Source: Lineus longissimus (taxonomy: Eukaryota > Nemertea > Pilidiophora > Heteronemertea > Lineidae). Taken from it: a stretch of 64,000 bases of DNA. The stretch is from the NCBI RefSeq assembly GCF_910592395.1, contig NC_088315.1, forward strand, positions 6,822,501-6,886,500. The letters run 5' to 3'. Shown in pieces: positions 1,585 through 46,870 of the stretch (the stretch's first letter is position 1; every line of letters starts with the position of its first letter). The position numbers were made by a program, and so were the translations under genes. Below the pieces are notes generated by a model. That model was not told the DNA's origin. It made no database searches and worked only from the letters and a program-made list of their open reading frames with translations.

Positions 1585-2907
1585 TCAAATGTCTTTTAGC
1601 AAAACGTAGTCCACAAGATGACGTGGTAGTTGGATTGTGTGTGATCCGATATTTCCGCCGCCCATTCCTCTCCTGAGCTGGATGCGAGCGATTTCCTGTA
1701 ACGTGTAATAACCACACCTAAGAAATTTTTCAAGATATTGCTCAATTAAGATAAGATCTGTTCCTCGAACTTGAAGATGCAGACTACGTATTTCTGACCA
1801 GGTCATCAGACCTGCTTTTATATAAGTCCTAACAAGTTCGACTAGGCAGGGCTGTAGCGGAACCATCCAGGAGCAGAGGCGTCTACATAAAGGCATGAGG
1901 TACGATTGGAGTGATATGGAACGCAACGTCCCTCCAGCCCCAATTAACCTGCAGGCTATGCGCGTTAATATAGGCACAGAGTGTCCACACTGGTGCGGTT
2001 TGTTTTCCTCCGCGGCAAGTCTCAGTAGAGTTTCATCCAAAGGAGTCCTCCCATTGAAATATTGGGAGTTGACATCAGCGTCATTTAGCAGTAACAAGTC
2101 TACGATACGTATAGTGTCTTTGTTCAACCTGCCTAAGATTGTTATATGAATTACACCCATTCCCTCGCAGTTTGTTTGACGGACGTCCGCGCCCCTCGAA
2201 AGAAGTTCGTCAACTATGCGGTACCTCCCATACTCGCAAGCTTGCATTAGCGCAGAAGCAGCGCCCGCAAAAAACGGGTTACCCATCAGCTGATTGACAT
2301 CAGCTCCTTTGTCCAAGAGTATATTCACCATGTCAAGGTCATCCTGCATGACCGCAGCAATCAAAGGTGTACCCCAGAACTTCGTATATTTCGGCTCAAT
2401 GTTAACATTCGCACCGTGGTTGACGAGTATTTCAACCGCCGACTTTCTGCCTTTGCGACAGGCAAACACCAAGAGATTGATATCCCCCGCTTTGTCCGGT
2501 GAAGCCCCAAGGTTAAGAAGTCTCACCATAAGCCTTTTATCGTTAACACGAAGAGCTGTGATCATACAGTTTTCCAGTTCGTCCAAGTGCATTCGTTGCC
2601 TCAAACCACCACTATGTTCCGCTAGACGTTCAATCAACGAGTCCCGGATACATCGTTCCGTGAGGGCGATCCGGCTCGTCAAATCCCCGTGGACCTGGCT
2701 CCTGCTCTTTTTTTCCAGCTTTCCAAACTGTTCGGACAACATCTGCCCAATCCTGTTCGCTCGGCATGAAATAGGCTCTTTTGAAAACGTTGCACTCTCG
2801 AATAGGGCTTCCGAAATAATGTCTTCATCAGTTTCTGCGTCGACCTGGCAAACGCTTGATCGCTTCTGACCATCTTTTTCTGTGCACGGTGATCTGCTCA
2901 CAGCCAT
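1585..2907 (-). CDS. Ankyrin-repeat protein with C-terminal SOCS box (ASB-like)
   Basis: A 440-residue protein in one coding exon. Residues about 108-300 contain ankyrin repeats, seen as repeated L-x-x-GA-x-x-N/D and T-PL-x-x-A patterns (for example HGANVN, KGADVN, RGADVR). A helical segment follows, then residues about 401-437 match a SOCS box: TLQEIARIQL, a Gly-rich turn, and QLPRHLVDYVL. In ASB proteins the ankyrin face binds a substrate and the SOCS box docks Elongin B/C and Cullin-5, so a role as a ubiquitin-ligase substrate receptor is inferred. The BC-box cysteine is Ala and the Cul5-box LPxP reads LPRH, so docking could be weak. The ATG follows a good 3' splice acceptor (pyrimidine tract and CTAG, with the exon starting at 2913), indicating a 5'UTR intron further up. 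Family assignment is firm, orthology is not. Confidence 0.82.
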   Translation of the reverse strand: MAVSRSPCTEKDGQKRSSVCQVDAETDEDIISEALFESATFSKEPISCRANRIGQMLSEQFGKLEKKSRSQVHGDLTSRIALTERCIRDSLIERLAEHSGGLRQRMHLDELENCMITALRVNDKRLMVRLLNLGASPDKAGDINLLVFACRKGRKSAVEILVNHGANVNIEPKYTKFWGTPLIAAVMQDDLDMVNILLDKGADVNQLMGNPFFAGAASALMQACEYGRYRIVDELLSRGADVRQTNCEGMGVIHITILGRLNKDTIRIVDLLLLNDADVNSQYFNGRTPLDETLLRLAAEENKPHQCGHSVPILTRIACRLIGAGGTLRSISLQSYLMPLCRRLCSWMVPLQPCLVELVRTYIKAGLMTWSEIRSLHLQVRGTDLILIEQYLEKFLRCGYYTLQEIARIQLRRGMGGGNIGSHTIQLPRHLVDYVLLKDI

Positions 2908-2913
2908 TTGGAC

Positions 2914-7500: not shown

Positions 7501-10446
7501 GGTAAGCAGCTATCAAACTACAAGTAGCAGTGAACATAATGCGTGAAATGGCTCATGTAACCGAATACCAGTGAAACGGCTAAACGTGTTCGCACGATGG
7601 TCAACAGCACAGAAGAGTCGCACTGTCGTGACTCATAGTCACCGGTTACATCGGCGCGATAAGTGCAACAGACTGAGTGACGAGATCATTAACCCAAGTC
7701 TCAATGCTAAGTCTCATTTTGTTCTTGTAGACACTAAACTTTTCCTATACCTCAACTTACAGGCATTCAGCTACAACGGACGACCAACAATCATTGCCAA
7801 GGATAGACGCTACCAAAATAAAATGGGCAATAGACAAGGGTTCAGCTTTCGAGATGTCAAGACACTTAATATCATGTATTCCTGCAATGGTGAGTAAGTA
7901 GAGTTTGATGGTTCGAGACGGGATGGTACTTCGAGATGGATGTTTGTTATAGAGCGCGGATAGCTTTCTTTTCACGAATTGAGCAAGGTAGTTATCAATA
8001 AGAAATCACTCGATTATTAAACCGTCATCTAGGTCGACTCAAAGGGCAAGCTAGTATATAATAATTGTAATTTTCATACGAAATGTCGAAGTTCAGCCTT
8101 GGCTTCTTCAAAGAAATATCTATCAGATTCTTTGTGCAAGTATGCATATTCACAATCAAAAAGGAATCATTTTGGTTTAACCGTTATTTCGACAGTAAAT
8201 ATTGATCTCAAGAGAAGTTTGCGAGAAATGAGCCTTTTTTACGGAGTGCCATTTCTGGTCCTTGATATCATATCTGCCCGTTTATTTTCCCTTCCCCTCC
8301 TTATAATAGCGCCTTGCAGAAAAAAACTGAATTGCCCTGGCGAAGGATTCCAAGGAAAGGATTGCAAATGTTATTGCCCGAGTAGCAGTTCCTCTAATCC
8401 TGTTAAGTTATGTGGAACTGGTGGGACAGGAACTGGAGGCGGAACCGGTGGAGGAACTGGGACTGGAGGCGGAGGAACTGGGACTGGCGGCGGAGGAACT
8501 GGGACTGGCGGCGGAACTGGAACAGGTGGAGGAACTGGATCGGGTACGCTTTCTTAAAAACCGCCCCTGGCCGTTTGATAGTTCGCCCAGTGTAGATTAG
8601 ACCAGTCATAATTGGTACCGGCCAATCTGAATATGGCTTAAGCTTTTGATGAAAAAGCTTTCCGAATGATGTGGCGATCTATCATTCTTAAGCTCAAGCC
8701 TTCAAATTTATATCTTTTTATACAACACCTTTAGGGAAGAGGACACAGCCAATTATACAAACAATTCTATGGATCTCAATGTCAACAAATAAAACGCACT
8801 GCGGCATTATCAAACCATGCATATAGTTCCCAAACATCGTACATGTAGTGCGAATGGCACACATATGGGAATTACTATATGGTTTCTTCTTCTCTCTAGG
8901 TTGCAAAGACAAAAACCGTGACTGCGCTTCCTGGGCAGGACGAAGATACTGTACTACTGGTCGTTACACTGTCTACATGAGAACTAATTGCAAGAAAAGT
9001 TGTCGTCTTTGCGGCGGTGGCGGCGGTGGCGGAGGGGGTACAACAGGTACAGTTTGACCACCTCTGTAGGTCTGCGGCTGGCTTTCAGTGCCAAGTCACG
9101 ATAATTTAAAATTGTGATCTTAGTTCCTTTTCCCGCCGTAGCGACTTGCACATGCCGTTTTAAGGCCGGACAAGTCCCCTAGACGCGGGTATTCTATCAG
9201 GAGTAATACGCTACTTGAGCAACTTAGTCAACTTAGTCAATGCATATTGAAAGAAACCCATAGAGGAGGTTGAATGATTTATAAAAATAAGGCCGTCGAA
9301 AACACGCCGAATCCAAGCAACTAGTATGTTCCCCACTAAGGAAATTTGTTTATACTGAATGAGTGAATTCTACTTTTAGGCTCCTCTTGTTTCGATATGA
9401 ACGGTAACTGCAGATCATGGAGTACGAGGGGTGAATGTCGACGCAACCCCAGGTATATGTTGACCTACTGCAAGAAGTCATGTAACGTGTGTAGATCGGG
9501 ACATGGTACGTATCCACACTGCTTGACGTCCCAATTCAAAACAAGTACGCGTACACTTGTGTTCTTATCCCGTTCTGACATTCTACTGATGGTCTCTATT
9601 CATAGACGGTGGTGAAGGAGACAATTGATTTGGATAGATCTCCGAACCAGATCAAAAAGCAAGTACTGGTACCGGTATACGCCATCGTTCAGGATTACGA
9701 AGTTATACAGTCATGACAGTGTGTTGTCGCATCGATAAGGTTGTTTCAACAGCGTGTGTGATTATACGCTCAAAGATTTTTTGGCTTAGATAAAAAAATC
9801 GAAACATTAGGTATTGAAATCCTTTTTTCAAAGGCATGTAAATGGCATGTACTTTCTGTACACGCTTGCTTCTTCACCGTGTTCGGTACATCATATCCGC
9901 TTCGACAAAAGCAGTTTTAATAGGCTACTTGTACGTAGAATTGCAGGTGCGAGTATACATACAAAGAGCGTAGCGCTCTAAGAGTATCAAACTTTTCTTC
10001 TTCTTCTGCGCTCTCAATCCTAGATGGATAGTTTTGTTCTGCTGACAAATGCTGTAGTCTGTCTTAATTCTTCCTGGTCCTTGATCCAGGCTCCGGAGGT
10101 CCAGAACTCCTCTCTCAGGGCTGAAAGTTCTCGGTATTTTGTCAGGATGAGTTTGACAGCTGCGTTATAGTTATAAGCGCATTCGTGAAAGTATGTCGTT
10201 AGTGTGTATGTTTTTCGCCTACAGAATACGAAAAAAACCACTTTCTTAATGTTAGTAACCGTTATCATTTTCATTCCAGCCTACGCCCTTGCTACCAGCC
10301 AACGCCCCAGGGGATCGGGGTGCGCGGATAAGAGTACCCAGGCTTCCTTGTGCCCTGGCTGGGCCAGGATTGGAGAGTGTACAAGGAATCCAGTTTACAT
10401 GCATCTCTATTGTAAGCGTTCGTGCGGGATGTGTACTAGCGGTTAG
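4562..10446 (+). CDS. Secreted astacin-family zinc metalloprotease with three ShK modules
   Basis: Eleven exons join in phase: 4562-4609, 4991-5057, 5438-5531, 6364-6485, 6740-6927, 7298-7501, 7763-7893, 8320-8543, 8900-9046, 9380-9505 and 10280-10446 (505 residues). Order: signal peptide (1-16), propeptide, basic RTKR site at 86-89 suited to furin-type activation, then an astacin domain starting near KRWxxxxVPYxI. The zinc motif [19 protein letters not shown] begins at residue 179. The Met-turn SVMHY (Met236, Tyr238) and the four domain cysteines are present, and the domain ends in MYSC near 282. A Gly/Thr-rich hinge (about 311-359) leads to three six-Cys ShK modules, one per phase-1 exon. 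The catalytic residues are intact, so an active secreted endopeptidase is expected, as in hatching or matrix-processing astacins. The exon 7 donor was set at GTAAGT (7894) because only this keeps frame with exon 8. Substrate is unknown. Confidence 0.9.
8410..8540 (+). repeat. Coding minisatellite for the Gly/Thr hinge of the astacin gene
   Basis: Repeats of GGAACTGGGACTGGCGGC-type words within exon 8 encode a run of G-T-G-G-G units that links the protease domain to the ShK modules. Its tandem nature predicts length variation between alleles without loss of frame where units are multiples of three. Confidence 0.75.
10020..10205 (-). other. Antisense open segment in the last astacin intron (possible gene fragment)
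   Basis: On the minus strand about 60 codons read in a protein-like way (…[13 protein letters not shown]… through …RTKLSI, stop) after an AG preceded by a short pyrimidine stretch (TATTCTGTAG). I recognise no family. It may be a terminal exon or a decayed insertion, and it may be chance. Confidence 0.15.
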
Positions 10447-10553: not shown

Positions 10554-11229
10554 AGAGTAAGCCAAAGTCGAAAAGGTGTGTTGGTTAATTTTTAATTATT
10601 CCTTCAACCATTCGAATAATCAAAAGTTTCTGTCGAAACCTCATTCACAGGCGAGGTTTTTGGGTAACATCATCGGTAGATAAGATTTTTTAGAGTGGAA
10701 ACCTCATTCTGTGCGACGATCACATAATAAAATCGAGTAAAGAAAAGTAGTCCACAATCAGCTATCGTCATTAACTACATGTATTACTAATCAGTTGGCA
10801 TGATTGAAAATGTCCAATTCGTTGAGGTCAATCCCTGTGCTTTATCTAGGCAGCCTAATTTACAATTATGAGAATTCCAAGCTGGTAGATTCGATGTGTT
10901 CAATCGCAGTTGATATATATCCTAGCTAAGTAAGACACGTGCCGATTTCCGACTTTCTTTTTCCAATACAAAGACCGTTGCATTCATCTAGGAAGACATC
11001 TGTAAAAGCAAGGTTTCGGGACCTCATCCTTGCCATTGGAAGATGTAAGGTGGTCTAAGAAGGATACAGGTTATTCATACCAACTCCGATTAAACTACAA
11101 GCATTATTAACAAACGCTTTTTTGGCCTCGTACATTCTCTCAGCAGTGACAATCAGAATTACACGTATAGAAAGCGGATGAGATTTGTCGAATGCAATCA
11201 GTGAACAACTGCTCTTTACCTTTTAATTT

Positions 11230-12813
11230 ATGACGCTGGTAGCAATGGTGATCAATTGTGAAAAACGTGTTGTGATAGTGATGCTCTCTGCGCTGACGCT
11301 TTTTAATCGCATTCATGGAAGCACCACTAAAAAGGTATTGGTACTTGCTCCTTCTGCACGCAGCCACCTCATGCAGGCCAACTCCGTGACTGATGGCCTG
11401 ATAGACAGAGGACATGATGTACATACCATTGTTGACGTGAGATTGAAACTCCCAGCAGACTTTTTGCACCCCAAGGTCAAGGTCATCAACTACGATAATG
11501 GCGTCGATGTGATCTTCAATACACCGGAGTATCAGGTGGATCTCGTTGCGATGGGGCTGAAGGATATGTCAGTATTTGAAAGACTGAACCTTCTTTCGAA
11601 GTTGTATGGTTTATTAACGGGAGAGTGCCACAGAGTTCTCGGAAATGTTGATTTGTTTGACAAGTTACAAAGAGAGAAATTCGACTTTGTGGTCATTGAT
11701 GGATTCATGAAATGCTTTTCGATATTTCCACACAGGTTGGGCGTTCCTTTCGTTTCGTTCCAATCGTTCCTCCCTTTTGACATACCTCACGCAGCACTTC
11801 AAGGTCCTCTATTGATCCGTGGTCCATTCGATGGTCTGCTCACCGGTGAGGATTCACCGGCCCTCTTGGCAACTACAGCAAAGGTGTTTCTTGTTCTTGC
11901 TGGGATGGATGCTTCTGCAGAATACTATCGGTACTCGAATAAGACTATTCTTGAACTGCAGAAAGAGGCCAAACTATGGCTCTACGACAAGAGCCTTCTT
12001 GTGGACAGCCCAATGCCGGTTTCCCCCAACGTCATTCGAGTCGGCGGCTTGAACATCCGCCGCCCCAAGCCCCTAACGGAGGGTAAATTGAAACACTTCA
12101 CTGATTCGGCGGAGGATGGGTTCATTCTTGTGTGTTTTGGGAGCTTTGTCCAACACTTTCCGGATAAGGTGGTTGACACGCTGATCGAATCATTTAAGAA
12201 TATCAGGTACAAGGTTGTTTGGAAGTGGAACAAGTCGTCTTTGTTATCGCGAGAAGTGCCAAATAACGTGTTGGTAGTGGACTGGATCCCACAAAATGAT
12301 ATTCTTGGCCATCGCAACATAAAACTTTTTGTAACTCATTGTGGTGGTAGCGGACTGCATGAGGCTCTGTACAGCGGTGTGCCAATGTTGGCAATACCTC
12401 TTTTCGGCGACCAAGTAATGAACGCCAAAACGATTACCACACTACATTTTGGACTGAATATTAGAATGAAAGATTTAACAAAGAGCCTGCTAGTTTCAAG
12501 TATCAACTCTTTAGTATCTGATGTGTCGTTTTCACGAAAGATTGGAGCGGCTTCGAGAATATTCCGGGATCAGCCGATGGATCCGAGGCAGACAGCAGCA
12601 TATTGGATTGAGCACGTGATGAAATATGGCGCTGATCACCTTCAAAGCAAGACCAATGAAATGTCTTGGTTCAGAATCCTTATGATGGATGTATTGTTCG
12701 TCGTGTGTGTAGTGTTTCTCGTTTTGTGTGTGTTAATAGCTGTTGTGTGTCATATAGCGTTCAGGAAATGCTGCCTCAAGAGTAAACCCAAACTCAAGAC
12801 CAAGATACAGTGA
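11230..12813 (+). CDS. UDP-glucuronosyltransferase-like membrane enzyme (UGT), intronless
   Basis: A 527-residue protein, the usual UGT length, in one uninterrupted frame. The N-terminus has a hydrophobic signal segment (about 13-30) and the acceptor-binding half. His46 in RSHLMQ sits where the catalytic histidine lies in UGTs. Residues about 352-395 hold the sugar-nucleotide signature: WIPQNDILGH, FVTHCGGSGLHEAL and GVPMLAIPLFGDQ. A C-terminal membrane helix (about 486-510) is followed by a Lys-rich tail ending KTKIQ, a KxKxx ER-retrieval pattern. This is the classic type I ER topology with the active site in the lumen. It transfers a sugar from a UDP-sugar to small lipophilic acceptors; donor and acceptor cannot be read here. 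Starts at 11245 or 11281 are alternatives, and the 11245 ATG has the better context. Confidence 0.93.
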   Translation: MTLVAMVINCEKRVVIVMLSALTLFNRIHGSTTKKVLVLAPSARSHLMQANSVTDGLIDRGHDVHTIVDVRLKLPADFLHPKVKVINYDNGVDVIFNTPEYQVDLVAMGLKDMSVFERLNLLSKLYGLLTGECHRVLGNVDLFDKLQREKFDFVVIDGFMKCFSIFPHRLGVPFVSFQSFLPFDIPHAALQGPLLIRGPFDGLLTGEDSPALLATTAKVFLVLAGMDASAEYYRYSNKTILELQKEAKLWLYDKSLLVDSPMPVSPNVIRVGGLNIRRPKPLTEGKLKHFTDSAEDGFILVCFGSFVQHFPDKVVDTLIESFKNIRYKVVWKWNKSSLLSREVPNNVLVVDWIPQNDILGHRNIKLFVTHCGGSGLHEALYSGVPMLAIPLFGDQVMNAKTITTLHFGLNIRMKDLTKSLLVSSINSLVSDVSFSRKIGAASRIFRDQPMDPRQTAAYWIEHVMKYGADHLQSKTNEMSWFRILMMDVLFVVCVVFLVLCVLIAVVCHIAFRKCCLKSKPKLKTKIQ

Positions 12814-15431: not shown

Positions 15432-18400
15432 TCAATAAGAAAGCGGCATGTTGAAAATTGGTCCGACTTTTGGGTCCATTGGAAAACTTTTCCTGATTCC
15501 CATGCAGGCTTTCTGGTCGATTGCTAAACTGTTTTCCTTGATGGAGATGTCCTCCTCGAACTTAGCTCTTGCTTGCAACAGACGGGCCAAGGCCTGTTCC
15601 GAGAGACGCAGACGTTCCTTCAAAGCCCGGATGGAGTCACGGATCTCGGCGACCTCTCTCTGGAGTCTGTTGAGAAGAAGCGAATGTATTTTCATAATGA
15701 GGCCCAGGGAATTATACATACAACGATAGGCTATAAAAGGGATGTGGCTTGGTTACGTCACCGTTCAGATCGATCATGTTGATCCGTGATAAGCATACAC
15801 CCCAATGATATTTTTATCGGAAAGATCATCATGATAATACTTACGTCTTCATGACGGGGTCGTTGCAGCGCTCCACATTCAATCGTCTGCACCTCTCGTC
15901 AAGTCGGGTCTGTGCAACCTTCATCGGAGCTTCCTTATCGGCAATAGCTTTCCTTAGTAAGTCGATATTCTTCTGCATTTCAAAGATCTCTTGCATGGTC
16001 TGTAAAGCAGAATGTAAAATGATTTTATAGCGGATCTTTACAGCCTCTTAATCATTCAGTAGTTTAATGTTGCTGTTTTTGTGAACATTTCCATCAACTT
16101 GATCCTGTATGACTTCTTTTTCAACCGACGTTTCATTTTGCTGAGTTACGAACTATTGCTTGATTAGAAATGTTGCTGAATTGCAAAAATTCTTTGTTCT
16201 GATACGTCTATTTTCGTGGAACCTGCTTCCCATGATCACGGAATGCTGTTTGAGGCGGCACTTGTTGTCAAAAAGGACTGAAACTGGTTGATGCCTGTTG
16301 GCAGTTAACTTTTTTGGGACCAGCAATCCACAACCACGTACCACTCTTCTTTCCAGGAGACGGACATTACGACATTTTATTCTTTTTTTAAACAGATCAA
16401 AGGTACTTTGCAAAACAAAGGTCAGATGAAAGAAAAAACTTACCCTCTGGAGATGAGCCTGCAATTTGTTCCTAGCATCAGTTGTTTCCTTGATTCTCGT
16501 GTTAAACGAGTTGTTGACAGAGTTGAACTGGCTCCACATGTCGTTTGCGCATGCCCTGAGCAGAGCATCGATCTCGCCTCGGAGTCGTTCAGATGCCTCA
16601 CGCATCTTCTGAGATCTCGCAATATTCTCCTGGGAGAATCGTGCCCAGGATTCTGGGATGCTGATGCTGTAAGAAGAAAAACCATAAGCCGATTAGGATG
16701 ATTGAAATTCAAAAGGAAAAATTACTAAACCCATGTTAACTCTAAGTTTGTACTGTGCTGGGATTCCATAGGTTAATCAGAGACAAGCTTCAGCGACGGG
16801 TACTTCGGACATGCGCATCCGCACACGCTTGAAAATATGCGCATTCTTTAAACAGATAACAGGTTATTATTGCAACAGAAAACAAGTTATTTTCATCACC
16901 AAGGAGGTAAAACATTCAACCTCATGATTCATATATTGAAATATTTAACATGCTCGGAAGACTTATAGCGGACCTTCTAGACTAGTTGAATATCAAAAAT
17001 GCAACTTACGTGTTGTCAACGCCCTCAACGCCTGGATGATAACCAATCCCCATGGACGAGTTCCTGAGCGAGTGCATGCGGTCATCCAAACCGTGGGCGT
17101 GGTGCTTGTCCTTGGCATCCTTCTCGAGCTCGTGCTGGGCTGCTCGGTTGAGTCTGAAGAGGGAGACATCGAGTACATGTATATCATTCACGGAGATCGC
17201 CAAATATGAAAGATTATTTTTTTCCATCCGGTTTGAAATCAAACAGGATCATCATCACTGGGTCTCCCCGTCGTATAAGTAGCAACACCGACGGCCTGGA
17301 CAATGGAAATTTTGTTTTATATCTGTCTAACATTGGACCAGCCAGAAAAATCTTAAGTTAATTAACAATCTCTCGCAAGTGTAGAAATAGCTTGACCATA
17401 TGATGATGCAGGCGAATGCGCTAGTGCGCTATAGCAAGAGTCGAAATGGTATGCTTACTTGAGTTGAACAGCAGACTTCTCCAAAAGCCTCTTCATCTTG
17501 TCCTGGCACTTCTTAATGATGTCCACTTCCTGAAAAAGTAAAGTAAGTCTAGTTCATTTGTCAATTAGTTTTGTAGGGTACAGGTAGTTTGGCAGTGTCT
17601 TTTCCTTTGCCATGATGTTCTCGAAATATTCATACACAATTCCTCTGTAGAAAGATGGCATGGCGTGTGGGCACTGCAAGCTTCTGGCAATTCCATTGGT
17701 TTCCATTGTATATTGGGTAGTTTTCGGAATCTCTCCGTAATGTTTAGCCCGATGATCCAACTTTGGACAAGCTACAAATCAAGGCTACAAAATGCACATC
17801 ACCAATCACGACTGGGCTGCAATGAGTCAGGCATCTACTGCGCAGCCGGTTACTGGTGCTTTGCAAATTGAGTAGGTCCCCTTACCCTGACGAGGCTCTT
17901 CTCGACGTCATCGTGCACCATGTCAATTCCCCGACGCTTCTCCCTGTGCATCAGACACTCTTCAGCGATGTGGAAGGGGTTCTGGGTGTGTTGCAGGGCC
18001 GATTCCAAAACTCGTTTGTGCTCCTAAAAACAAAGAAATGATTCCAGTTTATTATCGTGTAATTTAAGCTGTCTTGTGCGCCTACGGTAACTAACGATGA
18101 TGCATGGCAGCCAGTATTGATATAAATACGTTTATGATGCATTCTATCAAACGAATGATGCTTTGCATAACTATCGGTTTTCAACTCATTCACGGCTTTG
18201 TTCATCAACATCTTAATCACGTTTGACATGAGTTGTAAGGAATATTTCAGAAGATAGATTCCGAGGAACACAAGAATATACTTATACGCGCTTCCAATTT
18301 GCGGTACCTGGTCTCTTCTGCATTGCCATTACCATTTGCTAAAGTGATTTGGTTATGTCGTATGTGAGACGCAATATAGTAATGAAATGCTAAGCATTTA

Positions 18401-21400
18401 ATGAGTCCCGATATTGTATCAGGTAATATAAATGACGGATGTCAAAATGGTAATAGGAAAAAAGAAAACTAAATTCGCCAAACAACAGTAATTAACAAAA
18501 CTAACCTAAACAAACAGACAAATAGGAGTATCACAAAGTGCAGTATGGTTGGTGATTTGTGTGAAAATTATGCTGCTGACATGCTGTAAGCAAAGGGTGT
18601 GCACTGACGTCGAACCAGGTTGACCTTCCGTCGAAAGTATAACATTGTAAGCAAAATCAACAGACAGTTATCAATTTAATCACATGAAGGTTGTAAAGCC
18701 GATCATTTCTCTGGCGTTCAAAGCTTTTTTTATAAAGTGCCTTACTTTTACCCATATCCATAGTAGGAAGGCTTTGAAAGGTGGCGTGTCAAGTGTATTA
18801 AGCGATAACCCGGCGATGATTGAAAGAATGGTGTAGATGTCACTCCCTTTTCCAAGCATGTTCCCCATTTGTTGCTCACTGCTAACATATCCTCTCGGAG
18901 TATGTCTGAGGTTCGACACGTATATAAAACACAGAACTTGAGTGGTCAAAACTGATGAATACAAAATAATGAGTTCCCAATTCTCTTAAAAGATCATAAC
19001 AAATTAAGAGTGAAAGAAAATGTGAATTTTGAATTGTGTGACCATGACGAATGTAAATGATGGACCAATTTATCAACAAACCTGAAGGTTTCCAATTTCA
19101 TTTTGCATACAGTCTGTTTCGTGGTGAACTTCAGTTTTCCAGTGGTTAATGTCGCTTACTCTCTCTCCTGTGCAAAGGGGAAATTAGACGAAACAGCATG
19201 AACACACTATGAGAAAAACTACGTGTTGGTTAAGGAGTTAGACAATACAACAACATGAAATGTTATAGGATGTGACGTTCTCGCATCTAGTGGTGCATCC
19301 CTAAATAATACAATATGTTTAATATGTAGGAGACTACTGTACATAGGAAACAACGCCAAACGAGAGGCCCCAGTTGGTGATTTCAGGAGCTCCTCATAAT
19401 CCAAGTTCCTGTGCTAAAATATCTTGGAAAATTACCTTAAGGGGGACATTTTTATGTTAGAAACTGTTAGAGCACAATCTTCGCCATTGCCTGATTTGTG
19501 AGTTAAACAGTGTAGTGGCGTCAGTAAGCCTAGGGCTAAAGAAAAAAAGTTTTTCCTATAGCGTCTATGAACTGATATCAAGGTTCTGCAGGTGGTGAGC
19601 GAATCATCCTAACCATGTTTTATAGTATAAACGTATAAAACTGGGGTAGGGGTAACTTATGAGTATAATGTTATAGAAAACACATGTTAAAAAAACAAAT
19701 TTTATGTCCAAAACACTCGCAGTAATTTTAAGTATTAATTAACCTTGACATTCTCAATCTCATTGGCCATCGCATTGATTTCATTGTGGACTTCCTGTTT
19801 CCAGAAGTTGATATCAGTCACCCTTTCACCTGTAAGTATGACAAGGTGTATGGCCGAAGGTTATTTTGAGTCTAAAAACAAGTTTTTCAGGACCCCTAAC
19901 TCTTTATCTAAGGTCCAAGCTACAATACTTTCGCCTCTTTTCTTCGACAGGCATTTGGAAATTCCAATCAGAAAAACCTCATGCTTTCTGCACCTACATG
20001 TATGTGATCGGTTAAATACATGAAAAGGAGTCCCACATTGCTGCTTGTAGAAAATGGCGAAAATGACTACTGAAACCACCAACTAGCTTCTCAGTCAACA
20101 AGTTCAAACTAAGCATATTGTTTAACCTGAACATTCTGGATTTCATTGGCCATAGCAGCAATTTCATTATGGACCTCTTGCTTCCAGAAATTTATATCTG
20201 TAACTCTTTCACCTAAAAACGGAGGCAAGTTAACTTAGTCATAGTCTAAATCATTGTCAAACTACTACGGAAGAAACACGTATGGGTCACCAAGACACCT
20301 ATGACTATTTTCTGAAATATCAAATATGTTAGAAATCTATGTTGAGTTGATTATTGCCTACGTGTCGCCTGAAAGTGAGGAGTAATTTTCGTTAAAAGAA
20401 GCATGCAATTTCAATTTGCTATTCAATTTCATTGACAGTGATCATGCAAGCTACTGCTATGTCATCGACTAGATGGTGCTCCAAATAGGTGTCCATGTTC
20501 AAAGACAAGTACCTTCTTGTCAAGGCCGATAGTGAGACTGTCGTTCAGAAGTCGTCTCGAAAAGACGATGAAAAAAATCAAGGCAAAGCTGTCACATTGT
20601 GGAGGTCAACTGTTTATTCTGTGTTTGTTTAAAAAGCTACGGATGCCGCAGTATGGCAATCGGCACATGGCACTCCGATTATGTTTAAGAAATGCCGTAT
20701 ATCCTTAAGAACGTTTTAAGGTGGTGGCCAAAACTTAACAAATTACTTGCTAGTTCTACAGGATCTATGGCCTTCTGTGTATAGGAACACGATTTAGAGC
20801 ACCTTCTGTCACGAATGTTATCATCGCTATTTAGGAGAATGAGACGCGAACCTCTAGACGCCCTGTTTCATCACAATTCAGATCTTTCTCTTTTATTAAT
20901 TCTTTTTTCCAAAAATGGATATCTTCAACTCTTTCCCCTGAAAGACATCATGCATAGTTGAGCGGGTCGCATGAGCTTTAAAAATCAGCTACTCTGTCCA
21001 TCATGCGATACGAAAGCACTCGCACACTGGTTGCTGAAATGCCTGGTTCGTTTAGCCAGGTATCTTTCAAATGTTTTTTTTCAAACTCTCTTTACTTAGT
21101 TCTTAGTTTTTTTAACTCTCAAGCTAGTTGTTAGCCACTTATCATGTATACTATTTTACCATGCCGTAAAGTGTTTGCCCGTCAGCTCAATAACATCACT
21201 TCATTTGGACCTTCAAAACGCCAATCTTTGCAACTCTTCTCCTCAGATGCAAATAAAGTCTAATACAATTAGCACAGCCTCTCTTACCTAATCTCTTGGT
21301 GACATCTGTTTGCCGATTCCTGGTCCTTGCATCTGTTGATTTCACTGCCCTCCAGCAGTCTGCACGAAGACGCTCGGCAAAGTTTCGCTCCTTGTCAGAA

Positions 21401-21858
21401 AGGCCAAACTGGGCATTGTTAGACGCTTTCCAGTCGCTTGGAGAAAATCTGGCATATAAAGAGTTCCTGGGGACGAAAGGAGCTAAATGTTAATGCTGTA
21501 TCGGTTGAGGGGAAATTGCAATCCATCTCATCAGTTTCACATCTCCGTTTAGGATATAGTAAGTTACGCTGTAACCACAGTTGCCATGCGTATAAAATCA
21601 GTTACATTACTTTTCACAGCCGTTTCAATGTTATAGAAACATGGTTAGCGATTCCCAATTTTCGTTGAGAAAAATAGTCTTAGTTTTTTACCTCGCGGGG
21701 TTGTAGTATGTTTTAGCATGACTGACTTCGTACGATCTGCCGAGTTGCTTGGCAACCGTTCTGTCGGCAATGACCGGAAGTAGTCGTGACATTTCCGGTG
21801 TCATGGGAGTGACACTACGTGTGCGCACAACTGGCGAAGCAGCGTAATAAGCCGACAT
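15432..21858 (-). CDS. Tektin (tektin-3-like) with four alternative third exons
   Basis: Coding exons on the minus strand, 5' to 3': 21858-21692, 21466-21288, one of four 86-bp exons (20937-20852, 20212-20127, 19829-19744, 19167-19082), then 18023-17886, 17529-17459, 17153-17010, 16666-16444, 15999-15845 and 15666-15432. Any single choice gives 465 residues with all phases agreeing. Tektin hallmarks: [75 protein letters not shown] and [17 protein letters not shown] near the C-terminus. The tektin nonapeptide RPNVELCRD reads RLNVERCND. Tektins are coiled-coil rods of the axonemal doublet microtubule lumen. Similarity in the rod favours tektin-3/5 over -1, -2 or -4. Constitutive donors are nearly all GTAAGT/G/C. 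The ATG lies one base after an acceptor (TTTTTCAG), so at least one further 5' exon exists. Confidence 0.93.
19082..19167 (-). other. Tektin alternative exon 3d
   Basis: An 86-bp exon with acceptor TTTGCACAG and donor GTTTGT, encoding [17 protein letters not shown] and a diverged remainder. It lies nearest to the constitutive exon at 18023-17886. Read out of phase it stops at the fourth codon. Confidence 0.85.
19744..19829 (-). other. Tektin alternative exon 3c
   Basis: An 86-bp exon with acceptor ACTTACAG and donor GTTAAT. Same phases as the other copies and nearly the same peptide as 3b. Read out of phase it stops at the fourth codon. Confidence 0.88.
20127..20212 (-). other. Tektin alternative exon 3b
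   Basis: An 86-bp exon with acceptor TTTTTAG and donor GTTAAA, encoding [18 protein letters not shown] and a variable end. It differs from 3c at only three of 29 residues, so these two copies are recent duplicates. Confidence 0.88.
20852..20937 (-). other. Tektin alternative exon 3a
   Basis: An 86-bp exon with acceptor CTTTCAG and donor GTTCGC. It encodes [15 protein letters not shown] followed by a variable half. It enters in phase 1 and leaves in phase 0. It is the most 5' and one of the two most divergent of the four copies. Read in the wrong phase (after another copy) it reaches a stop within 14 codons. Confidence 0.85.
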
Positions 21859-22170
21859 CCTGAAAAATAAAAAGGATGTCTGTGATTCATTCAGAAAATA
21901 TTATTCCCGTCTTGCTTCTAGATAAGATTTTCATCATGTCAAAAGTGCATTAGATACAAATTATGATAATGTTTTGCGAAATATTTATTTACGTTTGATG
22001 AATTTTCCTTTTTCAAAAATATTATTGTTGATGGGTCATCCAACGCACTGACCAACCCAACTCTCGCCTGGTCGGAACAAAGCAAAGATACATTTTATCC
22101 GCAAAATCCATGAATAGAACGCCCGCAATACTTTAGCGGTTTACAATATTATCAGAATAAAACTTAAAGT

Positions 22171-26911: not shown

Positions 26912-26999
26912 GGCCTTCTTCCACAGATACACTTCCCAGAGGTGCACCTTCTTCCGCCTGTCTTGTTTGCCGTTTCTGCCTTAACCGTAGCCATGACAC
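26912..26999 (-). other. Candidate upstream tektin exon (88 bp)
   Basis: On the minus strand the segment has an acceptor-like ATATGACTTTTAG and a good GTAAGC donor. It contains an ATG at 26994 in a fair context (G at -3, G at +4). The frame from this ATG stays open to the donor and, if joined to the tektin acceptor at 21859, continues in frame into MSAYY. This would add 28 residues (MATVKAETAN… RRP), including a short Cys/Arg cluster. Frame agreement alone has a one-in-three chance, so this is a hypothesis. The exon could also be non-coding or unrelated. Confidence 0.3.
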
Positions 27000-36444: not shown

Positions 36445-38345
36445 GATGTGGTACAGATATTTAATTGAGTTACTAATTAACTAGGATAATGAAATGATTG
36501 GCTGACCCTGTTACCCAGATATGATACAGCAGTGGTTCAGTGATTTTCATTGAGTTACTGACTAACTAGGATAATGAAATGATTGGCTGACCCTGTTACC
36601 CAGATATGATACAGCAGTGGTACAGAGATTATCATTGAGTTACTGACTAACTAGGATAAAGAAATGATTGGCTGACCCTGTCACCCAGATGTGGTACAGC
36701 AGTGGTACAGAGATTATCATTGAGTTACTGCCTAACTAGGATAAAGAAATGATTGGCTGACCCTGTCACCCAGATGTGGTACAGCAGTGGTACAGAGATG
36801 ATCATTGAGTTACTGACTAACTAGGATAAAGAAATGATTGGCAGACCCTGTCACCCAGATGTGGTACAGCAGTGGTACAGAGATTTTCATTGAGTTACTG
36901 ACTAACTAGGAGAATGAAATGATTGGCTGACCCTGTTACCCAGATATGACACAGCAGTGGTACAGAGATTTTCATTGAGTTACTGACTAACTAGGATAAT
37001 GAAATGATTGGCTGACCCTGTTACCCAGATATGATACAGCAGTGGTACAGAGATTTTCATTGAGTTACTGGCTAACTAGGATAATGAAATGATTGGCTGA
37101 CCCTGTTACCCAGATATGATACAGCAGTGGTACAGAGATTTTCATTGAGTTACTGGCTAACTAGGATAATGAAATGATTGGCTGACCCTGTTACCCAGAT
37201 ATGATACAGCAGTGGTACAGAGATTTTCATTGAGTTACTGGCTAACTAGAATAATGAAATGATTGGCTGACCCTGTTACCCAGATATGATACAGCAGTGG
37301 TTCAGTGATTTTCATTGAGTTACTGACTAACTAGGATAATGAAATGATTGGCTGACCCTGTTACCCAGATATGATACAGCAGTGGTACAGAGATTATCAT
37401 TGAGTTACTGACTAACTAGGATAAAGAAATGATTGGCTGACCCTGTCACCCAGATGTGGTACAGCAGTGGTACAGAGATTATCATTGAGTTACTGCCTAA
37501 CTAGGATAAAGAAATGATTGGCTGACCCTGTCACCCAGATGTGGTACAGCAGTGGTACAGAGATGATCATTGAGTTACTGACTAACTAGGATAAAGAAAT
37601 GATTGGCAGACCCTGTCACCCAGATGTGGTACAGCAGTGGTACAGAGATTTTCATTGAGTTACTGACTAACTAGGAGAATGAAATGATTGGCTGACCCTG
37701 TTACCCAGATATGACACAGCAGTGGTACAGAGATTTTCATTGAGTTACTGACTAACTAGGATAATGAAATGATTGGCTGACCCTGTTACCCAGATATGAT
37801 ACAGCAGTGGTACAGAGATTTTCATTGAGTTACTGGCTAACTAGGATAATGAAATGATTGGCTGACCCTGTTACCCAGATATGATACAGCAGTGGTACAG
37901 AGATTTTCATTGAGTTACTGGCTAACTAGGATAATGAAATGATTGGCTGACCCTGTTACCCAGATATGATACAGCAGTGGTACAGAGATTTTCATTGAGT
38001 TACTGGCTAACTAGAATAATGAAATGATTGGCTGACCCTGTTACCCAGATATGATACAGCAGTGGTACAGAGATTTTCATAGAGTTACTGGCTAACTAGG
38101 ATAATGAAATGATTGGCTGACCCTGTCACCCAGATGTGGTACAGCAGTGGTACAGAGATTATCATTGAGTTACTGCCTAACTAGGATAAGGAAATGATTG
38201 GCTGACCCTGTCACCCAGATGTGGTACAGCAGTGGTACAGAGATTATCATTGAGTTACTGCCTGACTAGGATAAGGAAATGATTGGCTGACCCTGTTACC
38301 CAGATATGATACATCAGTGGTACAGAGATATTAATTGAGACACTG
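36445..38345. repeat. 85-bp satellite with 765-bp higher-order repeat
   Basis: About 22 head-to-tail units of 85 bp (core GAAATGATTGGCTGACCCTG … CAGCAGTGGTACAGAGATT). Unit starts at 36491, 36576 and 36661 confirm the period. Variant units recur at exactly nine monomers: AGGAGAATG at about 36909 and 37674, CTAGAATAATG at 37246 and 38011, and TTCAGTGATTTTC at 36536 and 37301. This shows a 9-mer higher-order unit of 765 bp, present about twice (36491-37255 and 37256-38020) plus a partial. Stops occur in all frames, so it is not coding. Confidence 0.95.
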
Positions 38346-41250
38346 ATTAACTAGGAGAAAGAAATTATGGACTGACCCTGTAACCAAGATGTGGTACAGC
38401 TATTTTGATTCAGTTACTTATTAACAACGACAAAACAATGATTGGTTGATCCTGCTGGCTAGATGTCAGATAGCTCTGATAATTAAGATACAAATTAACA
38501 AGCCCAAGGAAATCATTTGAACACCCTATTGCTCAGATGTCGTATGATTGGCTGATCCTGTTACCCAGATCTGGTACAGAGATTTTAATAGAGATATTGA
38601 TTAACTAGAAGAAATAATGATTGGTTGTCCCTGTTGCCCATCAGATCTGGTACAGCAGTGGTACAGAGATATTAATTGAGACACTGATTAACTAGGAGAA
38701 AGAAATGATTGACTGACCCTGTAACCAAGATGTGGTACAGCTATTTTGATTCAGTTACTTATTAACAACGACAAAACAGTGAATGGTTGATCCTGCTGGC
38801 TCGCCGTCAGATAGCTCTGATAATTAAGATACAAATAAACAGGCGCAAGGAAATCATTTGCACACCCTACTGCTCAGATGTCGTATGATTGGCTGATCCT
38901 GTTACTAAGATCTGGTACAGCAGTGGTACAGAGATTTTAATAGAGTTACTAATTAACTAGAAGAAATAATGATTGGTTGTCCCTGTTACCCATCAGATGT
39001 GGTACACAAAGACAATATACACATTAACAAGGGCCAAGAAATGATTTGCACACCCTATTGCTCAGATGTCGTATGATTGGCTGATCCTGTTACCCAGATG
39101 TGGTACAGCAGTGGTACAGAGATTTTAATAGAGTCATTAATTAACTAGAAGAAAAATTGATTTGCACACCCTATTGCTCAGATGTCGTATGATTGGCTGA
39201 TCCTGTTACCCAGATCTGGTACAGCAGTGGTACATAGATTTTAATAGAGATATAAATTAACTAGAAGAAATATTGATTGGTTGTGCCTGTTACCCATCAG
39301 ATGTGGTACAGCAGTGGTACACAAAGACAAGATACACATTTACAAGGGCCAAGAAATTATTTGCACATCCTATTACTCAGATGTCGTATGATTGGCTGAT
39401 CCTGTTACCCAGATGTGGTACAGAGATTTTAATAGAGTTATTGATTAACTAGAAGAAATAATGATTGGTTGTCCTTGTTACCCATTTACAAGGGCCAAGA
39501 AATGATTTGCACACATGTCGTATGATTGGCAGATCCTGTTACCCAGGTCTGGTACAGCAGTGGTACAGATATTTTAATAGAGTTCTTAATTAACTAGAAG
39601 AAATATTGATTGGTTGTGCCTGTTACCGATCAGATGTGGTACAGCAGTGGTACACAAAGACAAGATACACATTCACAAGGGCCAAGAAATGATTTGCTCA
39701 GATGTCGTATGATTGGCTGATCCTGTTACCGCAGTGGTACAGAGATTTTAATTGAGTTACTAATTAACTAGAAGAAAGAAATGATTGGATGTCCCTGTTA
39801 CCCAGATGTGGTACAGCAGTGGTACACAAAGACAAGATACACATTTAGAAGGGCAAAGAAATGAGTTGCACACCCTATTGCCAAGATGTCGTATGATTGG
39901 CTGATCCTGTCACCCAGATCTGGTACAGCGATTTTAATAGAGTTACTAATTAACTAGAAGAAAGAAATGATTGGCTGTTCCTGTTGCCCATCAGATGTGG
40001 TTCAGCAGTGGTACACAAAGACAAGATACACACTAACAAGGGGCAAGAAAACAAGGGGCAAGAAATGATTTGCTCATCCTATTGCCCAGATGTCGTAGAG
40101 TAGTGGTGTACATAGATTTTAATCGAGATGCTAATGAAGTGGGACAAAGAAGTTATTGTCTCATCCTGCTGTCAGACAGCAGCATAGCAGTATGGTGATT
40201 TGTATTCGAGTTAATCAACTAACAACACATAAATGATTGGCTGATTCAGCTGGCTAGAGGGTAGCGACCTTATTGGCTAACCCACATGCTGCGCCGATAA
40301 AGGACAGCAGTGGTACAGAGATTTTAATCAAGTTACTAATTAACTAGAAGAAAGAAATGATTGGCTGTTCCTGTTACCCAGATGTGGTACAGCAGTGATA
40401 CACAAAGACAAAACAATCATTAGCTGATCCTTTTGGCTATAGACGACAGATAGCTCTGATTTAGGTATTGTAATTAAGATACAAGTTAATGATATGCTCA
40501 CCCTATTGCCCAGATGTCGTAGAGCAATACATACATTTTAATCGAGTTGCTAATGAAGTGGGACAAATAAGTTATTGTCTCATCCTGCTGTCAGACAGCA
40601 TTATGGTGATATAAATCGAGTTAATCAACAAAGGACAAAGAAATGATTGGCTGGTCCAGCTGGCGAGAGATCAGAGAGCACTGGTTTCAGGATGTACTTT
40701 TTAACGAGGCCTTATTGGCTGACCCCCATGCTGCCCCGATAAAGGACAGCAGTGGTACAGAGATTTTAATCAAGTTATTAATTAACTCGAAGAAATGATT
40801 GGCTGTCCCTGTTACAGCAGTGGTGCACAAAGACAAAACAATCATTAGCTGATCCTGCTGACTATAGAGGTCAGATAGCTATGATTTAGGCATGGTAATT
40901 AAGATACAAATTAATGATTTGCTCAGATGTCGTAGAGCAGTGGTATACATAGATTTTAATCGAGTTGCTAATGAAGTGGGACAAAGAAGTTATTGTCACA
41001 AATAAATGATTGGCTGATCCAGCTGGCTGGAGGGCAGCGACCTTGTTGGCTCACCACATGCTGCGCCAATAAAGGACAGCAGAGGTACAGAGATTTTAAT
41101 CGAGTTACTAATTAACTATAAGAAGGAACTGATTGGTTGTCCCTGTTATAGCAGTGGTACAGATAATATTTTAATTGAGTTACTTATTAACTAGAGGAGA
41201 AAGAAATGATTCACTGACTGATTAACTAGGAGAAAGAAATGACTATCACC
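38346..41250. repeat. Diverged, rearranged continuation of the 85-bp satellite
   Basis: Satellite words (GATTGGCTGATCCTGTTACCC, CAGCAGTGGTACAGAGATTT, TTAACTAGAAGAAA) continue but units vary in length. They combine with new words (ACACAAAGACAAGATACACA, CACACCCTATTGCTCAGATG, GTTATTGTCTCATCCTGCTG) into composite repeats of about 230-350 bp. It looks like the older flank of the array. Confidence 0.85.
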
Positions 41251-44589: not shown

Positions 44590-46870
44590 TGTCATCCATG
44601 CCCCATTATAACCTGCCACGGGTTGAACTTGTGTAGGAGTCCAAAGATGTATGAGTGGCTCAGAACAATAGTGTCATGTTTTTTTTGTTTTGAGGAAATT
44701 GACTTTGAAATAAATTGTAAAACTTTTTATATTGGACTAGAATGTTCTGAGCCCCTGATATATCCTTTGGCACAGTTGATTTTGGTTGTTAACATTCATC
44801 CATGTTCAATCAAAACTATTGCAGGTTGATGGGTACATGTTGACATCCATGCCAGGCTTTGTTGAACTTGTCCAGGACTCGAGAGACATATGAGTGGCTC
44901 AGAACAATAGTCTAATATTGGACTAGAAATGTTCTGAGCTACTGATATATCCTTTGGCACAGTGGCTTCGATTGAACATTGATGAATGTTATGAACAAAG
45001 ACTATTGTAGGAATATCCTGGGTCATCCATGCCCTGTTCAACTTGTGGTTCAGAACAATAGTCTGATGTTTCTTTTAATTGATTGACATTGGACTAGAAT
45101 ATTCTGAGCCACTGATATATCCTTTGGCACAGTTGCTTCGATTGAACATGGATGAATGTTAAGAACAAAGACTATTGCAGGAATATCCTGGGTCATTCAT
45201 ACCGCTCTGTTCAACTTGTGGTTCAGAACAATGTTTCTTTTGACTTTTAATTGATTGACATTGGACTTGAGAGGAATATCCTGGGTCATTCATGCCAGGC
45301 TCTGTTCAACTTGTCCACTTGTGGTTGAGAACAATGTTTTTGTTGACTTTTAATTAATTGATCGACAATGGACTTGGAATATTCCTGGGTTATTTATGCC
45401 AGGCTTTGTCCAACTTGTCCACTTGTGGTTGAGAACAATGTTTTTGTTGACTTTTAATTAATTGATCGACATTGGACTTGGGTCATTCATGCCAGGCTCT
45501 GTTCAACTTGTCCACTTGTGGTTGAGAACAATGTTTCTTTTGACTTTTAATTGATTGAACTTGTCCACTTGTGGTTGAGAACAATGTTTCTTTTGACTTT
45601 TAATTGATTGATATTGGAATATTCCTGGGTCATTCATGCCAGGCTCTGTTCAACTTGTGGTTGAGAACAATGTTTCTTTTGACTTTTAATTGATTGACAT
45701 TGGAATATCCTGGGTCATTCATGCCAGGCTCTGTTCAACTTGTGGTTGAGAACAAAGTTTCTTTTGACTTTTAATTGATTGACATTGGAATATTCCTGGT
45801 TCATTCATGCCAGGCTCTGTTCAACTCATCCACTTGTGGTTGAGAACAATGTTTGTTTAATTGATATTGGACTTGAAGAATATCTTGGGTCATCCATGCC
45901 AGGCTCTGTTCAACTCATCCACTTGTGGTTGAGAACAATGTTTCTGTTGACTTTTAATTGATTGCCATTGGAATATTCCTGGTTCATTCATGCCAGGCTC
46001 TGTTCAACTCATCCACTTGTGGTTGAGAACAATGTTTGTTTAATTGATATTGGACTTGAAGAATATCTTGGGTCATCCATGCCAGGCTCTGTTCAACTCA
46101 TCCACTTGTGGTTGAGAACAATGTTTCTGTTGACTTTTAATTGATTGCCATTGGAATATTCCTGGTTCATTCATGCCAGGCTCTGTTCAACTCATCCACT
46201 TGTGGTTGAGAACAATGTTTGTTTAATTGATATTGGACTTGAAGAATATCTTGGGTCATTCATGCCAGGCTCTGTTCAACTTGTCCACTTGTGGTTGAGA
46301 ACAATGTTTCTGTTGACTTTTAATTGATTGCCATTGGAATATTCCTGGGTCATTCATGCCAGGCTCTGTTCATCTCATCCACTTGTGATTGAGAACAATG
46401 TTTGTTTAATTGATATTGGACTTGAGAGGAATATCCTGGGTCATTCATACCGCTCTGTTCAACTTGTGGTTGAGAACAATGTTTCTTTTGACTATTAATT
46501 TATTGACATTGGACTTGAGGAATATCCTGGGTCATTCATACCGCTCTGTTCAACTTGTGGTTCAGAACAATGTTTCTTTTGACTTTTAATTGAGATTGGA
46601 CTTGAGAGGAATATCCTGGGTCATTCATGCCAGGCTCTGTTCAACTTGTCCACTTGAGAACAATGTTTCTTTAATTGATATTGGGCTTGAAGAATATCCT
46701 GGGTCGTTCATGCCAGGCTCTGTTGAACTTGTGGTTCAGAACAATGGTGTAACGTTTCTTTTAATTGACATTGGACTTGAGGAATATCCTGTCCAACAGA
46801 AATATGAGTTGTTTAGAAGAATAGGCGACAGGTAATTAGAACATCCATGCCAGGCTCTGTTGAACAATGT
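44590..46870. repeat. Second satellite: 85-93 bp monomers with a 183-bp dimer
   Basis: The core words are GGTCATTCATGCCAGGCTCTG, TTCAACTTGTGGTTGAGAACAA and TTTGACTTTTAATTGATTG. GGCTCTGTT at 45642 and 45727 shows an 85-bp monomer; monomers with an extra CATCCACT-type insert are longer. Between 45779 and 46327 a two-monomer unit of 183 bp repeats three times almost exactly. Copies before 45200 are more diverged. There is no similarity to the 36-41 kb satellite that I can see. Confidence 0.9.

Follow-up and report, generated by a model that had tools for sequence, protein, structure and literature searches.

Whether a single gene can supply more than one version of the same ciliary rod is the question raised by a tektin gene of the nemertean Lineus longissimus. 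Tektin bundles stabilise ciliary doublets. In the 64-kb stretch of DNA analysed here (the window), this gene carries four homologous copies of one exon in tandem. It is highly probable that these tandem duplicates are mutually exclusive exons and that the gene, apparently tektin-3/5B, can give four rods that differ in helix 1A.

Structure of the gene and its identity

The gene lies on the minus strand and is complete, with exons 1-9 rebuilt from position 21858 down to 15432. An additional 5' exon (exon 0) was located with the help of a database protein, P0001, which is described below. The coding features are:

26912-26994, minus strand: exon 0, coding part; 27/27 residues match the N-terminus of P0001 (tblastn), donor GTAAGC after GCC, spliced translation verified
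21692-21858, minus strand: exon 1, from its own ATG; the acceptor AG ends at 21860
21288-21466, minus strand: exon 2, constitutive, leaves in phase 1 (reconstruction)
20852-20937, minus strand: alternative exon 3a, 86 bp; the copy carried by database isoform X1
20127-20212, minus strand: alternative exon 3b, 86 bp (frame and substitution comparison)
19744-19829, minus strand: alternative exon 3c, 86 bp; of the four, nearest to the mollusc major segment
19082-19167, minus strand: alternative exon 3d, 86 bp (frame and substitution comparison)
17886-18023, minus strand: exon 4, constitutive, enters in phase 0 (reconstruction)
17459-17529, minus strand: exon 5 (reconstruction)
17010-17153, minus strand: exon 6 (reconstruction)
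16444-16666, minus strand: exon 7 (reconstruction)
15845-15999, minus strand: exon 8 (reconstruction)
15432-15666, minus strand: exon 9, including the stop codon (reconstruction)

The product containing exon 3b matches the Pfam tektin profile (PF03148) over its full length, with profile positions 1-383 of 383 aligned to residues 68-450 (E 5.3e-139). Among solved structures, it comes closest to tektin-3 chains from ciliary doublets (E 1.1e-124). A protein search scored 8000 candidates, 498 of which were significant, and the best 120 of these 498 are numbered P0001-P0120. Six further proteins (P0121-P0126) are the new ones among the best 120 of 475 significant matches to the annelid Ridgeia protein P0040. 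The top match of the first search is P0001, 'tektin-3-like isoform X1 [Lineus longissimus]'. The 3a product equals it at 465/465 residues, so that the window comes from L. longissimus or from an animal that cannot be told apart from it here. P0001 has 28 extra residues at the N-terminus. This extension results from splicing of exon 0 to base 21859: residues 1-27 of P0001 are encoded at 26994-26914, and exon 0 continues to 26912, where it ends at a proper donor. Exon 0 is located ~5 kb upstream of exon 1, and the extension is basic and contains a cysteine. P0001 is the only Lineus database protein among the matches listed and holds exactly one copy, 3a; it represents a cluster with 7 member sequences, of which the representative alone was compared.

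According to the available text of a tektin survey, 3/5A and 3/5B are both ancestral in spiralians, and L. longissimus is among the keepers of the ancestral spiralian tektin set (PMC6357514). We placed the gene in a quick unrooted tree from the columns outside the cassette, with 123 rows (the window gene and 122 of the 126 fetched proteins, four being too gappy). A separate group of 10 rows (P0108, P0113-P0120 and P0126; support 100) was taken as 3/5A, no row being so labelled. We call the gene tektin-3/5B because both it and P0072, a Platynereis protein named tektin 3/5B, fall outside this presumed 3/5A group. It thus appears to be the 3/5B member of the spiralian pair.

The reading frame admits one copy per message

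Exons 3a-3d are homologous, each exactly 86 bp long, preceded by AG and followed by GT, and each enters in phase 1 and leaves in phase 0. A first-pass annotation of this DNA had proposed these exons, and their coordinates, splice dinucleotides and phases are exact to the base, as are the constitutive flanks at 21466-21288 and 18023-17886. Spliced translation confirms that the cassette encodes residues 116-144 of the 465-residue product. All four single-copy splicings yield an intact 465-aa reading frame. A premature stop occurs in every one of the 12 other combinations, whether two copies are joined in order (6 combinations), three (4), all four or none. The annotation had claimed this for the joining of two copies and the skipping of all four, with stops at the 4th codon for 3c and 3d, the 7th for 3b and the 14th for 3a when read in that frame. 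These positions are correct, and the rule extends to triples and to all four copies. The locus has two features of a cluster of mutually exclusive exons: the homologous copies lie in tandem with a common length and phase, and their combination or omission breaks the frame.

In tblastn searches of the 64-kb window, the exon peptides recovered the other copies with E values from 1.5e-14 (3b-3c) to 7e-4 (3a-3b), a likeness that exceeds chance. No fifth copy was found in the window, as the next-best match elsewhere has an E value of 0.57.

Conservation of the four copies

Between 3b and 3c, 14.0 of 14.4 synonymous sites differ versus 4.0 of 69.6 nonsynonymous sites (pS 0.97, pN 0.06), and the encoded residue is the same at 25/28 positions and different at 3/28. 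Synonymous sites are also saturated in the 3b/3d and 3c/3d comparisons (pN 0.24 and 0.23). Exon 3a is the most divergent copy, with pN values of 0.36 to 0.38 against the others. Relative to 3c, it alters 5 of the 12 positions taken as core, compared to 2/12 in 3d and 0/12 in 3b. All four copies keep an open frame, the exact length and the splice sites. Judged by these substitutions, the copies look old and under constraint. Decayed copies would not be expected to show such a pattern, in what is a short segment.

Mollusc proteins vary at the same segment

Seven labelled mollusc species have two database proteins each that are identical over rod residues 58-115 and 145-451 and differ in the segment, where identity is 43-71% (residues 117-144). 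The pairs are:

Crassostrea angulata X1/X2: P0005/P0024, within-species pair by label
Ostrea edulis X1/X2: P0011/P0032, within-species pair by label
Saccostrea cucullata X1/X2: P0012/P0021, within-species pair by label
Haliotis asinina X1/X2 and X3/X4: P0019/P0038 and P0018/P0037, within-species pairs by label
Mytilus edulis X5/X4: P0044/P0042, within-species pair by label
Potamilus streckersoni: P0009/P0052, both under a single locus tag
Magallana gigas: P0005/P0028, P0005 being assigned to M. gigas by its UniRef label

They come from a scan for proteins with at least 97% identity over residues 58-115 and 145-451 and less than 82% inside the cassette. The scan gave 44 pairs among the 120 proteins (best 120 of 498). 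It was repeated on the 126 fetched proteins, of which 121 were scannable (P0105, P0109, P0112, P0122 and P0124 were left out as incomplete), and gave 44 pairs again, none with a new row. Identity outside the cassette is 100% in 17 of the 44 pairs, and some of these 17 link two species or rows without a label. The oysters C. angulata and M. gigas are near-identical, have P0005 in common and are hardly independent. In C. angulata, M. gigas, O. edulis, S. cucullata and both H. asinina pairs, the whole proteins differ solely inside the segment, at 9 to 16 residues. The Potamilus and M. edulis pairs contain further differences at the N-terminus, before residue 23. Other isoform-labelled mollusc rows have no within-species partner of this kind among the matches listed. 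The mollusc 'X' isoforms are, we assume, largely automatic software models.

The first-pass annotation had proposed a search of related species for repeats of the exon. Molluscs show protein variants at the segment; among the labelled annelid, brachiopod, bryozoan and flatworm rows no within-species pair is found (121 of 126 proteins scanned, many rows being unlabelled). When the protein search was limited to the region of exon 3a (residues 108-152), 13 candidates came back, with P0001 alone at E <=1, so that 3a-type exons elsewhere are not countable in this way. Taken with the Lineus cluster, the mollusc pairs suggest that these animals may vary their ciliary rods by splicing. The mollusc isoform entries are already in public databases; the variation across seven species at a single 28-residue segment is a new observation.

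Two Nucella lapillus models, P0013 and P0020, each contain two homologous segment copies in tandem at the cassette point within one protein. The models are doubtful because the frame rule of Lineus excludes two-copy products, and they are likely annotation errors if the mollusc exons obey the same rule. Correction of both models would follow.

Alternatives to mutually exclusive use

The copies could owe their presence to the assembly, as an artefact or as haplotypes stitched in series. We give this practically no weight: just 51-79% identical in DNA, the copies are too divergent for haplotypes, a repeat search finds them alike only across the exons and ~10 flanking bases, and molluscs vary at the identical segment. 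A more substantial objection is that one copy supplies essentially all functional protein, while the remaining copies are rarely spliced leftovers. The oyster data lean in this direction, with 582 contigs for the major-segment protein P0005 and 1 each for the minor P0024 and P0028. The minor mollusc segments are also less conserved, with a mean identity of 18.0/28 against 25.5/28 for the major segments (21 pairwise comparisons among the seven labelled species, in which one major protein stands for both C. angulata and M. gigas), and the sole Lineus protein among the matches listed carries 3a. It is possible that the minor variants are rare, tissue-restricted or less constrained. However, all four Lineus copies have retained frame, length and splice sites, and among 3b, 3c and 3d the amino acids are largely kept in the face of synonymous saturation, long before which dead copies would presumably have decayed. 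The copy in Lineus X1 (3a) also differs from the one that comes closest to the mollusc major segment (3c), hence more than one type has been retained. We consider it improbable that three of the copies are leftovers.

The frame rule could alternatively serve as an off switch, in which two-copy and zero-copy messages are degraded and thereby control the amount of tektin, the peptide differences being incidental. The early truncation of the protein in all non-single combinations is what such a switch would produce. A poison exon, however, needs one exon and not four conserved coding copies, and the differences between major and minor mollusc segments recur at positions 4, 15, 25 and 28 in 6/6 species. 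The odds of an off switch are accordingly slim. The proposal of the first-pass annotation, mutually exclusive exons in a tektin-3-type gene, is instead supported by the frame logic, the selection on the copies, the Lineus isoform with 3a only and the mollusc pairs.

Age and relationships of the copies

Exon 3c is the best match of the mollusc major segment, with 20/28 identical residues and a BLOSUM62 score of 106 (Crassostrea, Haliotis) versus 53-99 for the other copies. P0002, unlabelled and encoded on a 3.3-kb contig, lies near Lineus in the quick tree and is also closest to 3c (21/28). Exon 3a resembles the segment of the flatworm Macrostomum (15/28, BLOSUM62 79) and is grouped with it in the segment tree (97/89), apart from 3b-3d. 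The Haliotis minor segments resemble 3d by BLOSUM62 (82 to 84), a grouping absent from the segment tree. With 28 columns and 33 hand-picked rows, this tree rejects none of five groupings (p-AU 0.10 to 0.42), and a clade of all four Lineus copies is not rejected (p-AU 0.12). As 28 columns are too few, we assert no copy-by-copy orthology except for 3c, which the best-match argument suggests to be orthologous to the mollusc major segment.

We favour a cassette that predates the split of nemerteans and molluscs. The chance that the two cassettes arose independently, by repeated duplication of one exon, is nevertheless considerable, if somewhat below even. The segment tree places the Lineus and mollusc minor copies apart, with the five groupings left standing, and the labelled rows of the other four groups lack within-species pairs among the 121 of 126 proteins scanned. 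Against this, the variation affects the same gene and the same segment in both phyla, and the mollusc major segment has its nearest match in 3c. Exon 3a joins Macrostomum and not 3b-3d, although an all-Lineus clade is not rejected. A derivation of 3d from tektin-3/5A was considered, given 17/28 identical residues with the Lingula protein P0115 (presumed 3/5A). The idea was dropped because an Owenia protein fits equally well, with 17/28 and a higher BLOSUM62 score.

Segment position 20 is an asparagine in 8 and a methionine in 82 of 103 distinct segments. The asparagine is found in 3a, P0058, P0060, P0078, P0079, P0082, P0099 and P0101. Apart from 3a, these are the Macrostomum protein P0078, three unlabelled members of its group and three rows of the Platynereis/Ridgeia group. 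The residue possibly marks a second old class of the exon.

Position of the cassette in the rod

The structure prediction for P0001 (53 sequences) has a mean pLDDT of 79, a pTM of 0.54 and pLDDT values >=90 at 251 of 493 residues. The predicted helices span residues 93-199, 211-274, 295-401 and 412-475, with lengths of 107, 64, 107 and 64 residues. This is the four-helix pattern of the published tektin rod, in which, according to the text available, helices 1A and 2A comprise ~108 residues, twice the length of 1B and 2B (PMC8595878). The 50 solved structures listed as the best fold matches of the model are all doublet-microtubule entries. In P0001 the cassette corresponds to residues 144-172, a stretch that runs from near the midpoint of helix 1A into the C-terminal half (predicted block means of pLDDT 87 to 95). 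The structural placement called for by the first-pass annotation thus puts its residues 116-144 inside the predicted rod helix 1A; aligned to bovine tektin-3, they correspond to residues 147-175.

Variability along the segment follows a helical period. At 100 degrees, the p value is 0.0001 for the entropy over 102 distinct segments and 0.0085 for the four Lineus copies, which give 0.0016 at 102.9; all these values are rough, the sequences being related. Single pairs show a weak signal (p 0.04 to 0.17), and the six mollusc pairs give a low value at just one of the two angles (p 0.094 and 0.0076). Across 103 distinct segments, positions 2, 6 and 16 never vary, and positions 5, 10, 12, 13, 23 and 27 are nearly invariant. 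Mapped on the predicted helix, the variability would lie mostly on one face. The most likely effect of exon choice is an altered set of side-to-side rod contacts in the A-tubule bundle.

Splice signals and the mechanism of exclusion

The donors of all four cassette exons start with GTT (GTTCGC, GTTAAA, GTTAAT and GTTTGT), whereas the other donors of the gene start with GTAA in 8/8 cases and with GTT in 0/8. The GTT donors fit weak, regulated splice sites; the four copies share ancestry and hence do not count as independent. It is also possible that the common GTT was plainly inherited from one ancestor.

Steric exclusion is judged on the basis of minimum intron sizes. The introns between the copies measure 639, 297 and 576 nt, and with at least 297 nt they leave room for splicing, so that simple steric exclusion is unlikely. 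As an alternative device we considered docking/selector pairing. The five introns of the cluster were searched with 24-base probes from the first and last intron (step 8, 25 dinucleotide shuffles) for one docking site that could pair with every other intron, a coarse search in a single species. The best pairings, -17.0 and -16.6 kcal/mol, are no better than the shuffle means of -17.7 and -17.4, and at this resolution a structure may still be present. The GTT start of the cassette donors is, as we understand it, unlike the U12-type consensus. None of the known exclusion devices (short intron, docking/selector pairing, U2/U12 mismatch) was thus found, and such devices do not define the class. 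Rfam gave 0 matches in the window at gathering thresholds.

Because steric exclusion is unlikely and no docking site was found, we favour regulated weak donors, presumably controlled by splicing factors, with nonsense-mediated decay as a probable clean-up step. In this scheme, the spliceosome would join exon 2 to one of the copies 3a-3d and the chosen copy to exon 4. Owing to the 86-bp length and the change from phase 1 to phase 0, any other product would be frameshifted or stopped early and therefore give no rod, and would probably be degraded. The outcome would be four rods whose difference is limited to 28 residues of helix 1A, largely on one helix face. Within the A-tubule lumen of the cilium, these rods would form head-to-tail polymers that differ in their sideways contacts. 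Under this scheme, 3b, 3c and 3d would all enter messages, faulty products would be removed, and cell or cilium type would govern the choice.

Relation to known systems

Mutually exclusive tandem exons are a known kind of splicing (PMC9013439, PMC9741552), which includes Dscam-type arrays (PMC6071210). As described in the available parts of these sources, they resemble the Lineus cluster in having homologous exons of equal length and phase, one of which is used per message to swap one segment. Compared with such arrays in general, the tektin case is new to the open-access literature searched, and no competing RNA structure was found in Lineus. The exon clusters of insect muscle myosin heavy chain (Mhc) likewise use exon choice in one gene to make cytoskeletal isoforms that elsewhere come from a gene family (PMC2257972, in the sections available). 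Mhc is, however, a muscle motor protein, while the Lineus gene encodes a ciliary rod protein and has one cluster of four.

No description of alternative tektin exons of this kind was found in the open-access literature, a scope to which subscription papers and bioRxiv preprints mostly do not belong. This agrees with the first-pass annotation, which knew of no tektin with such a cassette, although the mollusc variants already exist as database isoform entries. The accessible portions of PMC6357514, PMC9803972, PMC8595878, PMC10663601, PMC5368703 and PMC11834534 give no account of alternative tektin exons. The main text of the tektin survey, with 0 occurrences of the words splice, isoform, exon and intron, differs in this from the exon choice in Lineus (PMC6357514). 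In the available text of an abalone Iso-Seq paper, tektin-1 is the only tektin named, as a male marker.

Variation of the tektin-3/5 rod by cilium type has a precedent in mammals, where a separate gene, tektin-5, gives sperm a tektin bundle of different make-up from that of other cilia (PMC8595878, PMC10663601). According to the available text, tektin-5 appears to be expressed only in sperm cells (PMC8595878) or in testis (PMC10663601). The mammalian case rests on separate genes and not on exon choice, and its differences are expected to spread over the protein. We propose that exon choice could play a similar part in worms and molluscs. The ideas of the first-pass annotation that the choice could tune cilium or sperm type and that all four Lineus copies are used reach further than the data. 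The fuller reading, in which different cilia build different tektin bundles under a splice code that goes back at least to the split of nemerteans and molluscs, is put forward tentatively, as one we think rather unlikely. If spiralians do switch a 28-residue tektin face by splicing, no new genes are needed for the cores of cilia to differ, and what that face does by itself becomes testable in animals with many cilium types.

Other features of the window

Four further coding features lie outside the tektin gene:

1585-2913, minus strand: ankyrin-repeat protein in a single open frame of 442 codons
7136-8557, plus strand: astacin metalloprotease exon; the open frame after it holds a glycine-threonine-rich repeat (21-bp unit, 8446-8515)
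11227-12813, plus strand: intronless open frame of 528 codons, UDP-glucuronosyl/glucosyltransferase-like (Pfam UDPGT, E 2e-77)
61654-61992, minus strand: open frame with no Pfam match and a weak match (E 3e-4) to the solved ion channel chain 3wkv, which we take to be a voltage-gated proton channel

The window also contains two tandem-repeat arrays. The array at 36448-40050 starts with 23 copies of an 85-bp unit (95% match at 36448-38400) and continues with longer units. The second, at 45214-46791, has periods of ~53 to 183 bp.
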